Source of the DNA: Candidatus Obscuribacterales bacterium
Lineage (GTDB): Bacteria > Cyanobacteriota > Vampirovibrionia > Obscuribacterales > Obscuribacteraceae
NCBI GenBank assembly: GCA_019744775.1
Contig: JAIETZ010000004.1
Coordinates: forward strand, 62,001 to 126,000
Reading direction: 5' to 3'
Length of the DNA stretch: 64,000 bases
Made by a program: the position numbers and the translations under genes
Part shown: in pieces, positions 8,953 through 14,137 of the stretch
How the letters are laid out: each line of letters opens with the position of its first letter
Position numbering within the stretch: position 1 is the first letter of the stretch
Notes under the pieces: generated by a model
Told to the model about the DNA's origin: nothing
Database searches by the model: none
Seen by the model: only the letters and a program-made list of their open reading frames with translations

Positions 8953-10383
8953 TTAATTTCGAAAGAATTGACCATGGAAACCAAAAGGTACTAACAAAGG
9001 CAACTCCATACGTGCCATCTCATCCATTGAAGCAGCATCCAAAACAATCAAGAAAGATTTTTTTCGTGCGGCGTCCAATACCACGGACAAGACAACCCCA
9101 TCATCCTCATTGACTGCATCCGGTCGCGCTACAAACACCGGTTCGCCGGGATAACACTCATCTTGCCGCCAATCTTTCAGCTCATTTGTTTTCACATTGA
9201 ACTTTACCAGTCTATTTAAAAACTTCCCATCATCCTGACCGGGCGCATAGACGTAGTTATATGCCTTGCCATTCACCCGTTCATAGTAAATGCGCGGTAA
9301 TTCCAGTCCGGCTTCGCAGATATTTTCAGAAGACATCTTTTTTGACGCTAATGACAAACGCAACCTGCGCAACTTCGGTAGTGGCAAACTACAGTCCTCA
9401 TTTCTCAGGTTGGCCAAATAAGTACTCTGCACAATCTGAGCATCCGGATATGCAAGCAAGTCAATGACGACGTCGCCATTTTCTTCAAATGCATTGACAT
9501 GATGGAAACAGAAAAATGCATCTGTTTCAGCAAAGGCAACAAGCTCTCCGTGCTCCTTGCTGTAAACACTCACGCGAGTTGCATTGTTACCCTTCCATGA
9601 ATAACTCTCAACATATGTCTTGTTTCCCAGGATTACGTCCAAAGGATTTACAACGAATGGGCACTCAACCAAAATAATGTAATTAGCACTGACGGCAAAG
9701 CTGTGAAAATAGCACGGCGCTTTAGTTTTGATGACAGCGATTTCTTTTCTAGCAGTTGTTCCATGACCTACTTTATAAATGACATATGCACTTGTCGGAC
9801 CAAGTTTAATCAATAAATTGTATAGTTCGCGTCGTTCAAAATCGTAATGCGGGTGAGCTGTAGTGACTTGACCGGCGAGCTTGTCGTCGTAGGTAAACTT
9901 GCCGATTGTAGTCAGGTCACGACAATCAAATTCCACGGTATTGACTGTTTCAGTCAAGCCCAAATAATGCTCATTGAGATTAACCAAATTGACGTTGGCA
10001 TTATCGGTGAGCATGGGATTGAAGGGATTGGCAAGTTTTTCAATGAAGGAGCGACTGGGGTTGGTACCAAATTCAGCTAGTCCAATACGGTTATCTGCAG
10101 TTGCTATCCTATAGGCATCCGTCTCCAAAAATTTGCATGTAAGTTTTGCCTCACCAGCGGCAAAAGAGAATTTGTGCAGTTTTGCCAGCCCGTCAAACCA
10201 ATGACGATATTGCTGCAATCCCGCCTCAAATTTGGCAGGACCATTCCGGACAAGATGACCTTCCAGCCAATCGGGTACTTTGCCCTTAACAGGCAAACTC
10301 AGGTCGATACATTCGTGCAACTGGCTCTCAAAACCAGGGGCAAATGCCGATACGGTAGATGCAGATGAGTTTGGCGGGCTCAA
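8953..10383 (-). CDS. carotenoid cleavage oxygenase (RPE65/CCD family)
   Basis: 476 residues. Non-haem iron dioxygenases of this family cleave carotenoids or apocarotenoids into aldehydes such as retinal. The seven-bladed propeller family needs four iron-binding His, and all are visible: TAHPHYDF (H177), YFHSF (about 224), FCFHHVNAF (about 293) and FGFHGQF near the C-terminus (about 470). The N-terminal PDWLEGHLVRNGPAKF and HWFDGLAKLH segments are also typical. No signal peptide, so cytoplasmic. The start ATG lies just before the 207-bp divergent region shared with the signalling operon at 10592. Substrate cannot be told from sequence; it implies access to carotenoids, made or acquired. Confidence 0.93.
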   Translation of the reverse strand: MSPPNSSASTVSAFAPGFESQLHECIDLSLPVKGKVPDWLEGHLVRNGPAKFEAGLQQYRHWFDGLAKLHKFSFAAGEAKLTCKFLETDAYRIATADNRIGLAEFGTNPSRSFIEKLANPFNPMLTDNANVNLVNLNEHYLGLTETVNTVEFDCRDLTTIGKFTYDDKLAGQVTTAHPHYDFERRELYNLLIKLGPTSAYVIYKVGHGTTARKEIAVIKTKAPCYFHSFAVSANYIILVECPFVVNPLDVILGNKTYVESYSWKGNNATRVSVYSKEHGELVAFAETDAFFCFHHVNAFEENGDVVIDLLAYPDAQIVQSTYLANLRNEDCSLPLPKLRRLRLSLASKKMSSENICEAGLELPRIYYERVNGKAYNYVYAPGQDDGKFLNRLVKFNVKTNELKDWRQDECYPGEPVFVARPDAVNEDDGVVLSVVLDAARKKSFLIVLDAASMDEMARMELPLLVPFGFHGQFFRN

Positions 10384-10591
10384 GATATGTCCTTTGCGGC
10401 CCCTCGTAAGGGTTAGCCTATGGGCGTTTAGGGCTTTTTAAGATTTGGAAGAATTTGTTAAATTATAGCCTAAATGGGGCACTTATTAGATGGAACTGGC
10501 ATCACAGACGCTCAAAGCACGCCGCAATCAACGGCTTGCCCACGACAGGTAAGACCTGCCGTTTATGCCCCAATTTCAGGAGGCGCGAAGC

Positions 10592-12079
10592 ATGGAAGCA
10601 TTCGACGCACGCCAGTTTCAAAAATGGCTCCACAACACGACAGACCGCAACCTAAAGGATGCGATTTACTATGTCTTAGCTGCCAACAAGAAGCTTACCG
10701 AAAACGACCCGGACCGCGACGAAAGACTTATCGACAAGAAGTTATTGGAATCGAATGAATTGGGATTAGATGATCCCCAAATGCAAATTATCCACAAGGT
10801 GATTGCAACTAATGACACAACACCACCAGGAATTCTAGATTTCCTCGGCAGTGTTGCCGACGAATCAGTTCGCCTACGTGTGGCGGAAAACAAGAACAGT
10901 CCGGCAGACACATTAAACAAGCTCGCTCAAGATGAATGTGTAGAAGTTCGCGTAGCTGTCGCCGAGAATTGTAGTACAACCGCCGAAATCATGAGCATAT
11001 TGAGCAACGACGAATGCGCCGATGTCCGCTACGCTGTTGCTGAAAATCCGGAAACCCCTCAAGAGATACTAATAAACCTTGAAGAGGATGACAATCCATA
11101 TGTAGCCCATCGCGCACAACAGACAATACAAAAGACAGAACCAATTAGAAATCCGGCTCGATTAATGAAAGTCTCTACTGTTTTAATTGTGGACGATGAT
11201 CACTTCATAAGAGCCCTACTTAAAGAACAAATCTGTTCAGATCCGACATTCACTGTCATAGGTGAAGCAAGTAATGGTCTTGATGGATTGGATCAGGTTT
11301 TGCATTTGAAACCGGACATTGTTCTCATGGATATTGGACTGCCGATGCTCAATGGTGTAGCCAGCACGCAACACATTAAGGCGGAAATACCCAAAGTTAA
11401 AGTACTAATGGTTACGAGTCGCGATGACGATGCCGATATCATCGGCGCGATAGAGGCCGGAGCTGACGGCTATCTTCTAAAGTCCGGCTCTTCAGACAAT
11501 TTATTGACCGCCCTTCACCAGCTGGCTTCCAACAACAGTTGGATCGATCCTGGAGTAGCAAGTACAGTCTTACGCCAGTGCATTCGTCAGCCGAATGTTA
11601 AATCGGCACCATTGCAGCTCCCAGCAACAGCCCCACAGCCAGTGAATGCAGCAATTACAGTTGTCTTTGATATGGCATCGAAAGCAACCAAAGAAGGCAA
11701 ATGGGACGTTGCTCGCACACTTTGCCAGGCAGCTTTGCAAATTGCGGAAGCCGCTAAGGATGTGGCGCCTCAAGAAATATCACAGCTACTCTCGAAATTA
11801 GCCGACACCTGTTACACTCACGAGGATTACAAAGCATCGGAATCGTTGTATCTAAAAGCACTGGAAGTACGCCAGACGCAACTAGATGAAACTGATCCAA
11901 AGCTAGACAATTACGTAACATTCCTAGCGAAACTGTACGAATCTGCAGGCAACAATCAACAAGCAGAGCTTTATTACTCCTGGTCACTGAGAATTCGTGA
12001 ACAATCAGGAGATCAGGGATTAATAACGGAAGCACAGGAACGACTAGAGAATGTGATGACACCACACAAAGAAGGCTAG
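10592..12079 (+). CDS. LRV repeat - receiver - TPR response regulator
   Basis: 495 residues from ATG 10592, chosen because AGGAGG (10578-10583) is eight bases upstream; an ATG at 10565 lacks such a site. Order: an N-terminal helical part (1-50); about four leucine-rich-variant-like repeats of 24 residues (60-170, pattern DECVEVRVAVAEN); a NarL-type receiver (about 193-310) with VDDD, phosphoacceptor D247 (LMDIGLP), and the Lys of LLKSG; then tetratricopeptide-like helices (350-490). No DNA-binding domain, so output is probably by protein-protein contact. Nine bases separate it from the hybrid kinase at 12089, its likely phosphodonor through that protein's Hpt domain. The combination LRV-REC-TPR is unfamiliar to me. 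Confidence 0.85.
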   Translation: MEAFDARQFQKWLHNTTDRNLKDAIYYVLAANKKLTENDPDRDERLIDKKLLESNELGLDDPQMQIIHKVIATNDTTPPGILDFLGSVADESVRLRVAENKNSPADTLNKLAQDECVEVRVAVAENCSTTAEIMSILSNDECADVRYAVAENPETPQEILINLEEDDNPYVAHRAQQTIQKTEPIRNPARLMKVSTVLIVDDDHFIRALLKEQICSDPTFTVIGEASNGLDGLDQVLHLKPDIVLMDIGLPMLNGVASTQHIKAEIPKVKVLMVTSRDDDADIIGAIEAGADGYLLKSGSSDNLLTALHQLASNNSWIDPGVASTVLRQCIRQPNVKSAPLQLPATAPQPVNAAITVVFDMASKATKEGKWDVARTLCQAALQIAEAAKDVAPQEISQLLSKLADTCYTHEDYKASESLYLKALEVRQTQLDETDPKLDNYVTFLAKLYESAGNNQQAELYYSWSLRIREQSGDQGLITEAQERLENVMTPHKEG

Positions 12080-12088
12080 GGAAAAACA

Positions 12089-14137
12089 ATGCCGGAGTTC
12101 CTCAAGCACATATTCAGTCATGATTTCATGCCCCATGGATACTGTCTGCAATGGAATTCAGGACTCGTGCCGATATTGATCACAGCAAACATAGCCATTG
12201 CTGTTGCTTACTATGCAATTCCAGCAGCGTTATTTTTCTTTGTGCGCAACAGGAGAGACCTGGCGTTTTCCTGGATATTTGCTTTATTTGGAGCATTTAT
12301 TCTTGCTTGCGGCACAACGCACTTAGTCTTTGTTTTAAATATCTTCAAGGGCTATTATTGGTTAGAAGCTCTCGTCGATAGCTTTACGGCAGTTATTTCC
12401 ATAATTACAGCCATAGTACTCTGGCCGTTGATACCGAAAGCCTTGTCATTGCCAAGCCCAAAAGAGTTAAAGGAAACCAATGAAGAGTTGATACTTCTCA
12501 ATACTCGCTATATGAATCTGAACGCCGAACTTTCGGAAGTCAACAAACAACTAACAAGCGCGCGCGACCAGGCAATTGAGTCTTCAAAATTAAAGAGCTG
12601 GTTTTTGGCCAATATAAGTCACGAATTACGCACACCGCTAAGTGCAGCACTGGGCATGAACGAGCTCTTGTTACATACGGGACTAACGACAGATCAAAAG
12701 TCCTTTGCCGAAAGCGTCCAGTCTTCAGGGCAGGCACTGTTGTCGCTTGTAAATGATTTATTGGATTTATCGAAGATCGAAGCTGGAAAAGTTACCATCG
12801 AATCGGTTCCTGTTGATATTGATGATTTATCACGCGAGTGCTTGGGACTCTTTGAAGTTCCAGCGAAAAACAAACGCCTCAAACTCAAATGCTACGTCGA
12901 CCCGCGTGTGCCTCGTCGTCTCTTTGGAGATCCTGCACGTATCAAACAGGTGCTTGTAAATCTGGTCGGCAATGCCGTGAAATTCACAGACAAAGGTGAA
13001 GTCACATTGCAAGTCGTCATCCGCGCTGATCATTCAGACTATATGGATGTAGAATTCACAATCATCGATACAGGCATTGGTCTGTCGACTGAAGAACGTG
13101 ATCAAATCTTCAAACCTTTTGCGCAAGTTGATCAGTCAACATCGCGCAGATATGGTGGAGCCGGATTGGGCTTGACGATAAGCAAACACTTAGTTGAACT
13201 TATGGGCGGCAGCATTGGTGTCAGCAGCAGCAAACAACGTGGATCTTCTTTCTGGTTTACCGTGCCTATGCACTTGGCTCCCGAGTCTGCCGTCATGGGC
13301 GGACCAGACGACAAAATGGCAGTCTTAGCCGGCAAACTCTTAGGCAATGTCCTTGTTGTAGAAGACGATTCGCTGTTGCAGCAGCTTACGGTAACGCAAT
13401 TAAGTCATCTTGGTTTAAAGAGGCATGTCGTAGATGACGGACTGGAAGCACTTGCCGAAATTAAGCGCAATAAGTACGACCTTATCCTTATGGATTGCCA
13501 CTTACCTTTAATGGATGGTTATGAGGCAACACAACGAATTCGCGAAATGGAAAAACAAACCGGAGAACACATAACGATTGTCGCTATGACTGCCGGAGCC
13601 ATGCCTGGAGACTATGAACGCTGCCAACAATCCGGAATGGACGATTATCTAAGCAAGCCTTATACCCTAAAACAACTGAGAGAAAAGCTAGCAAAATACT
13701 TGCCGACTTCAGATGTAGAATCTGCCCGCGAATCCAAAGTTATGAGTGGTGAGTCGAAAGAACGCGCTGATGCGTCGGCTTCAGCAGGTGGTCTGGAGTC
13801 TAAGGAACTCCTTAACTTCTTGCGCATAAAACAAATCGCGCCGCCGGACAAAGTACCAATGCTCTTGTCACTATACATAAGTTCAGTGAAAACATCTTTA
13901 CTAACGATAGAAAAATGTGTCGCTGAAAAAGACAGCAAAGAAATAGCCGCACAAGCTCACAAGATACTTGGTAGTTCAAGAACAATTGATGCCTATGAAA
14001 TGGTTGAAATTACAACGCAACTCTATTCAGCAGCCAAAGCAGATGACTGGAATGAAATACCCCGTCTTGTGAACGCGCTGCAAAAAGCACTCGACTCTGT
14101 GTCCGTCGAAATTGAAAACGCGATGCGCTCTTGCTAG
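12089..14137 (+). CDS. hybrid histidine kinase with ethylene-receptor-type sensor domain
   Basis: 682 residues. Residues 25-118 form three membrane helices of the ETR1/bacterial ethylene-binding type: AVAYYAIP (Y41, P45) and FILACGTTHL (C74, H78, the copper ligands in plant ETR1). The Asp before helix 1 in ETR1 (Asp25) aligns with N34. A coiled linker leads to HisKA with phospho-acceptor H178 (SHELRTP), an ATPase domain with N box (NLVGNAVKF), DTGIGL and GGAGLGL, a receiver (about 415-535, D469 in LMDCHLP) and an Hpt domain with H624 (AHKILGSS). This is a complete phosphorelay ending in Hpt, with the receiver of the upstream gene as the obvious target. Ligand is inferred from family only. Confidence 0.92.
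   Translation: MPEFLKHIFSHDFMPHGYCLQWNSGLVPILITANIAIAVAYYAIPAALFFFVRNRRDLAFSWIFALFGAFILACGTTHLVFVLNIFKGYYWLEALVDSFTAVISIITAIVLWPLIPKALSLPSPKELKETNEELILLNTRYMNLNAELSEVNKQLTSARDQAIESSKLKSWFLANISHELRTPLSAALGMNELLLHTGLTTDQKSFAESVQSSGQALLSLVNDLLDLSKIEAGKVTIESVPVDIDDLSRECLGLFEVPAKNKRLKLKCYVDPRVPRRLFGDPARIKQVLVNLVGNAVKFTDKGEVTLQVVIRADHSDYMDVEFTIIDTGIGLSTEERDQIFKPFAQVDQSTSRRYGGAGLGLTISKHLVELMGGSIGVSSSKQRGSSFWFTVPMHLAPESAVMGGPDDKMAVLAGKLLGNVLVVEDDSLLQQLTVTQLSHLGLKRHVVDDGLEALAEIKRNKYDLILMDCHLPLMDGYEATQRIREMEKQTGEHITIVAMTAGAMPGDYERCQQSGMDDYLSKPYTLKQLREKLAKYLPTSDVESARESKVMSGESKERADASASAGGLESKELLNFLRIKQIAPPDKVPMLLSLYISSVKTSLLTIEKCVAEKDSKEIAAQAHKILGSSRTIDAYEMVEITTQLYSAAKADDWNEIPRLVNALQKALDSVSVEIENAMRSC

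Follow-up and report, generated by a model that had tools for sequence, protein, structure and literature searches.

A candidate phosphorelay in Candidatus Obscuribacterales pairs an ETR1-type kinase with a rewired sensor site and an LRV-REC-TPR regulator

Introduction

In ethylene receptors of the ETR1 type, the essential copper site consists of D25, C65, and H69 (PMC12643061). Mutation of D25 or C65 abolishes ethylene binding by ETR1, in which a contact between D25 and K91 has also been predicted (PMC11819568). According to those passages of PMC13012798 that cite Azhar 2023 and Aman 2025, ETR1 with Asn in place of this Asp is a functional receptor of approximately 100-fold lower affinity, and natural variants are known. 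There is as yet no settled account of how ethylene receptors convert ligand binding to a signal; a current model rests on the Asp25-Lys91 contact. Wang in 2006 is said to have found seven residues to be required, Y32, I35, P36, and I62 among them. Residue numbers follow an ETR1 reference sequence in which the positions agree with the known mutants C65Y, I62F, A31V, and A102T.

Among bacteria, SynEtr1 of Synechocystis and AzoEtr1 of Azospirillum brasilense are ETR1_N kinases encoded with or beside a response regulator (PMC6682694, PMC11819568), and the kinase described in this work resembles them in this respect. AzoEtr1 of A. brasilense Sp7 binds ethylene and is followed by a bare receiver of 135 aa (PMC11819568); D25 and K91 are both present in our alignment of it. 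SynEtr1 signals via the regulator slr1213 to CsiR1 transcription (PMC6682694). In the locus described here, on the other hand, the regulator precedes the kinase and is built with LRV and TPR repeats. Like Arabidopsis ETR1 and the canonical ethylene receptors, the kinase has an ETR1_N domain with Y32, I35, P36, I62, C65, and H69 followed by a histidine kinase, but it has Asn at D25 and Asp at K91, lacks a GAF domain, carries its own Hpt domain, and is accompanied by a bacterial regulator where the plant receptor uses CTR1-type signalling. The kind of ETR1-type phosphorelay is already known; what is unusual here is the scaffold regulator and, which is more interesting, a sensor site that is rewired family-wide. 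Candidatus Obscuribacterales is placed in Candidatus Melainabacteria by NCBI, and no paper joining 'ethylene receptor' with Melainabacteria was found in the literature search.

Results

The gene pair and the kinase

The window, i.e. the whole stretch of 64,000 nucleotides of Candidatus Obscuribacterales DNA that was analysed, contains the regulator gene and, nine bases behind it, the kinase gene (Table 1). The original prediction, made from the letters of the DNA, had described two genes at this spacing, the domain order of both proteins, and the positions of four phospho-acceptors. The open reading frames agree with the spacing, the Pfam search returned the same domain order with strong E-values, and H178, D469, H624, and D247 were found at these residues when checked letter by letter. 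Agreement of this kind far exceeds what chance would give. The regulator start at 10592, which has AGGAGG 8 bases upstream, is the best one; translation could also begin in the same frame at 10565. Promoter and terminator scans stayed near the shuffled level.

Table 1. Features of the regulator-kinase pair, in window positions, with E-values of the Pfam matches
Feature	Position	Strand	Basis
Regulator gene, LRV-REC-TPR, 495 aa	10592..12079	+	ORF, Pfam, dN/dS 0.045 for the region in common with G001
LRV-type repeats, approximately residues 62-186	10775..11149	+	Pfam LRV (1.5e-9), LRV_2 (5e-7); AlphaFold2 model
Regulator receiver, residues 197-308, NarL/LiaR/VraR-type	11180..11515	+	Pfam Response_reg (2.7e-25); nearest solved structures LiaR, VraR
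D247 codon, predicted phospho-acceptor	11330..11332	+	Checked letter by letter
TPR helices, residues 350-489	11639..12058	+	Pfam TPR_12 (3.3e-14); AlphaFold2 model
Gap between regulator and kinase genes, nine bases	12080..12088	+	ORF coordinates
Hybrid histidine kinase gene, ETR1_N-HisKA-HATPase-REC-Hpt, 682 aa	12089..14137	+	ORF, Pfam
ETR1_N membrane sensor, residues 27-121	12167..12451	+	Pfam (3.4e-31)
N34 codon, ETR1 D25 position	12188..12190	+	Alignments
D97 codon, ETR1 K91 position	12377..12379	+	Alignments
HisKA; H178 codon 12620-12622	12602..12787	+	Pfam (1.7e-19), motif check
HATPase_c	12926..13270	+	Pfam (7.1e-29), motif check
Kinase receiver; D469 codon 13493-13495	13349..13690	+	Pfam Response_reg (1.6e-24), motif check
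Hpt; H624 codon 13958-13960; H-box HKILG	13862..14098	+	Pfam (7.8e-8), motif check

The ETR1_N match of the kinase reaches 107.8 bits against a cut-off of 27, and this domain is the only one of its kind in the 4.1 Mb window genome. The kinase and receiver motifs are intact. The original prediction of a complete set of phosphotransfer residues is correct for the phospho-acceptors in HisKA, both receivers, and Hpt, but not for the Lys at His+3 of the Hpt domain, as its H-box, which is the same in G001, does not have the form HxLKG. This Lys is present in 17 of the 20 Hpts of the compared set, and the Hpts of the pair in G028 and G065 are canonical (HRLKG). Only three Hpts occur in the window genome. 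By comparing the window genome (G000) with G001, dN/dS was 0.016-0.07 by domain over both genes (0.035 for the membrane domain, 0.028 for Hpt), which indicates a working gene pair under purifying selection. The membrane domain is also the best conserved part of the kinase between genera, with 63.5% identity versus 25-59% for the other kinase domains, and it is 99% identical to that of the nearest named relative, the Candidatus Obscuribacterales MAG JAKFVJ010000477.1. As far as sequence can tell, a four-step relay from H178 via D469 and H624 to D247 is likely.

The regulator

The Pfam search of the regulator showed no DNA-binding family, as had been predicted, and no helix-turn-helix family; TPR_12 stands where the GerE helix-turn-helix would be. 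The residues D247, D202, T275, and K297 of the receiver active site are unchanged across 10 regulators. LiaR and VraR are nearest to the receiver both by sequence and by fold, the linker helix included, and kinesin light chains are the nearest solved TPRs to the TPR part; the matches of the fold search with the whole regulator all concern the receiver and say nothing on the LRV or TPR parts. In the AlphaFold2 model, built with 10 sequences (mean pLDDT 82, pTM 0.53), short repeating helices, the receiver, and TPR-like helices follow one another in this order, and the relative placement of the three parts is unreliable. Judged from its domains, the protein is a NarL-type receiver to which LRV repeats have been added on the N-terminal side and TPRs on the C-terminal side, the latter in the place of the helix-turn-helix. 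It thus has the receiver and the following linker helix in common with response regulators of the NarL/LiaR/VraR type and differs from them by the lack of a helix-turn-helix and by the repeats on both sides, so it provides an example of a NarL-type receiver used with repeat scaffolds instead of a DNA-binding domain.

The full-length LRV-REC-TPR regulator was found in 11 genomes of one family only, and a sample of 386 genomes of the phylum, to which the search was confined, gave no further copy. The unusual architecture, which had been noted as unfamiliar, is real. When the class was searched with the regulator, the 11 full-length copies were followed by REC-TPR proteins and then by ordinary regulators of 220-260 aa, which match it in the receiver and the linker behind. 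The REC-TPR proteins G028:C193 and G035:C641 of the same family have a receiver followed by TPR_12, as in the window regulator, but no LRV repeats. The same holds for G017:C540, which has a protein kinase domain in front; this Ser/Thr protein kinase-REC-TPR fusion lies at L068:1322-3310. Many small proteins with LRV repeats alone occur in the Obscuribacterales family of the window, and the window genome encodes at least five other LRV proteins (L225:3693-5600, which is G000:C4, and those on L208, L226, L227, and L228), one of which is a 635-aa array.

Conservation of the pair

The regulator gene lies directly upstream of the kinase gene in five genomes of two genera (G000, G001, and G002 in one, G028 and G065 in the other), with gaps of 7-35 bases in the four besides the window genome. 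The pair is thus conserved together in relatives, which had been set beforehand as a test. The kinase of G028 is split into two overlapping frames, perhaps by an assembly error, and that of G065 is whole. In two other genera (G009, G025, and G064), the same regulator has a stand-alone Hpt gene upstream of it on the same strand, approximately 315-390 bases off. Genomes such as these have 15-22 Hpt domains, so with an assumed number of approximately 7000 genes, an Hpt would adjoin the regulator by chance in the order of 0.5% of cases. The Hpt occurs beside the regulator in two forms, as a domain of the sensor kinase and as a separate gene, and with this low chance expectation it is the best evidence for transfer from Hpt to the regulator. 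The stand-alone neighbours, as separate support, suggest that the Hpt would communicate with the LRV-REC-TPR regulator. In the Hpt tree, the Hpts of the pair and the stand-alone Hpts were not clearly grouped and a one-group topology was not rejected (p-AU 0.136); because of this ambiguity, Hpt kinship was left out as evidence. Neither an Hpt nor a sensor kinase was found beside the regulator in G013, G030, and G035. Sensor kinases of the same layout also occur without this regulator (G008), and other sensors of the family are often beside simple receivers.

The sensor site

The original prediction of an ethylene-binding-type sensor is borne out by the ETR1_N domain and by the copper residues C65 and H69, which are kept as C74 and H78 in the alignment together with Y32, I35, P36, and I62, but not by D25 and K91, which are N34 and D97 in the window kinase. 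Owing to these two replacements, ethylene binding is not to be assumed and high affinity is unlikely. ETR1 with D25N is still functional, so ethylene sensing would be compatible with N34 taken by itself, although this residue argues against high affinity. For Asp at the K91 position, no precedent was found in the literature searched. A PDB search with the sensor gave no homologue.

We compared 137 distinct sensor domains, which were selected for their similarity to the window domain and do not amount to a full census, and found D25/K91 in 94, another residue with D25 in 9, N25/D91 in 26, another residue with N25 in 6, and a degenerate site in 2. N25 together with K91 did not occur in any of them (0/137), and K91 was missing in only 9 of the 103 D25 domains. 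All N25/D91 domains come from the family of the window, in which they are nearly fixed; D25 is the residue in other families of the class. When columns 25 and 91 were masked, the sensor tree placed most N-class sensors in a single clade. Within the family, the coupling therefore represents few events and mostly one inherited change, and there were too few independent pairs for a sign test. Outside the family, three N25 lineages are each without K91 (Bryobacterales N/L, Tildeniella N/H, and Kamptonema N/Q, the last also without the copper Cys), and they provide small but consistent independent support for a putative coupling of the two positions. At position 72 in helix 2, most D-class domains have an acidic residue and most N-class domains have Lys, with Phe in the genus of the window. 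The copper Cys is also lost in the ETR1_N-like domains L290, L292, L071, L073, and L207, and the His as well in L290, L292, and L071; some members of the ETR1_N family therefore cannot bind copper in the ETR1 way.

Discussion

We hypothesize that the two genes form one operon-like phosphorelay, in which the membrane kinase senses a small hydrophobic ligand and relays to D247, with protein-protein interaction as the output; we consider the chances of this reading to be even. The three-helix domain of the N25/D91 subclass would use a Cu(I) site to bind the ligand, for which ethylene or a related alkene is the likeliest candidate, and binding would alter the autophosphorylation of H178. The phosphoryl group would then pass to D469, to H624 of the kinase's own Hpt, and to D247 of the co-encoded regulator, a route proposed from the anatomy of the proteins and the gene neighbourhood. 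The phosphorylated NarL-type receiver may in turn alter the binding of partner proteins by the flanking LRV and TPR repeats rather than bind DNA. This reading draws on the domains and phospho-acceptors, the adjacency of the pair and of Hpt, the invariant receiver site, the kept copper residues, and purifying selection, and the protein-binding output on the TPR and LRV repeats and the absence of a DNA-binding family. Counted against the relay or against ethylene are Asn at D25, Asp at K91, the Hpt without Lys, the ambiguous Hpt tree, the regulators of G013, G030, and G035, and the kinase of G008. What had been observed in the letters is confirmed, and its interpretation is partly supported.

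For the sensor, we tentatively suggest, with somewhat less than even confidence, that the ETR1-type sensors of the Obscuribacterales family form a second class, where the Asp-Lys contact between helices 1 and 3 has become Asn-Asp, usually with Lys for the acid near H69 on helix 2. This class would have an altered ethylene affinity or a changed ligand, and in two genera it would drive a phosphorelay ending in a protein scaffold. It is doubtful, but possible, that the domain is no longer an ethylene receptor at all, and that its fold and Cys/His metal site were kept for another ligand, for example a larger hydrocarbon or the Cu(I) ion, with the relay unchanged. Such a change would fit the replacement of both D25 and K91 by a pair kept family-wide and the changed charge at position 72 in most of the family. 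It would also fit a FadL/TodX-type porin gene (PF03349), which follows the kinase by approximately 80-118 bases in G028 and G065 (L060:10570-11802, plus strand; L197:3166-4422, minus strand), is the sole copy found in each of these genomes, and was absent from eight other genomes searched. The porin hints at a hydrophobic ligand, but in one genus only. Moreover, nearly every N-class domain retains C65, H69, Y32, I62, and P36, and D25N alone does not abolish ethylene sensing by ETR1 in the cited passages of PMC13012798. From its sequence, the window sensor is probably a low-affinity ethylene or alkene sensor that feeds a protein-binding output. A family in which both residues are replaced and the copper Cys and His are kept is a natural experiment on the Asp25-Lys91 model, and it offers ready-made double-substituted domains to assay.

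The output could also be less dedicated than the proposed relay requires. The Hpt would then serve other receivers, and the LRV-REC-TPR protein would be a general adaptor or phosphate sink of several kinases, which would explain regulators with no adjacent kinase or Hpt in three genomes that encode many kinases and Hpts (G013, G030, and G035). We regard this as unlikely in view of the tight kinase adjacency in two genera, the Hpt adjacency in two more, and the small number of Hpts in the window genome. Decay of the pair, with the membrane domain as a mere anchor and an inactive Hpt, is very improbable: the loss of D25 and of the Hpt Lys would agree with it, but the membrane domain and Hpt have the low dN/dS values given above and C74 and H78 are kept.

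Neighbouring genes

Polyphosphate metabolism was considered as the output: G013 and G030 have a PPK1-like gene (judged by eye) after the regulator, and in the window a PPK2 gene is located 3.1 kb beyond the pair. This output was rejected because the adjacency is not common to the genomes. An RPE65-type carotenoid oxygenase gene lies divergent from the pair on the minus strand (window 8953-10383), and this neighbour is kept in G002. LRV repeats accompany ETR1-type sensors at two further loci. In G021, a sensor kinase is followed by an LRV-kinase-REC protein (L086:8205-10196), and in G018, an LRV protein is encoded beside a double kinase (L069:6301-7167). The contigs L107, L127, and L133 from MAGs titled Chloroflexi, Proteobacteria, and Actinobacteria match G002, G009, and G005, respectively, and have the same genes, so these titles look wrong.
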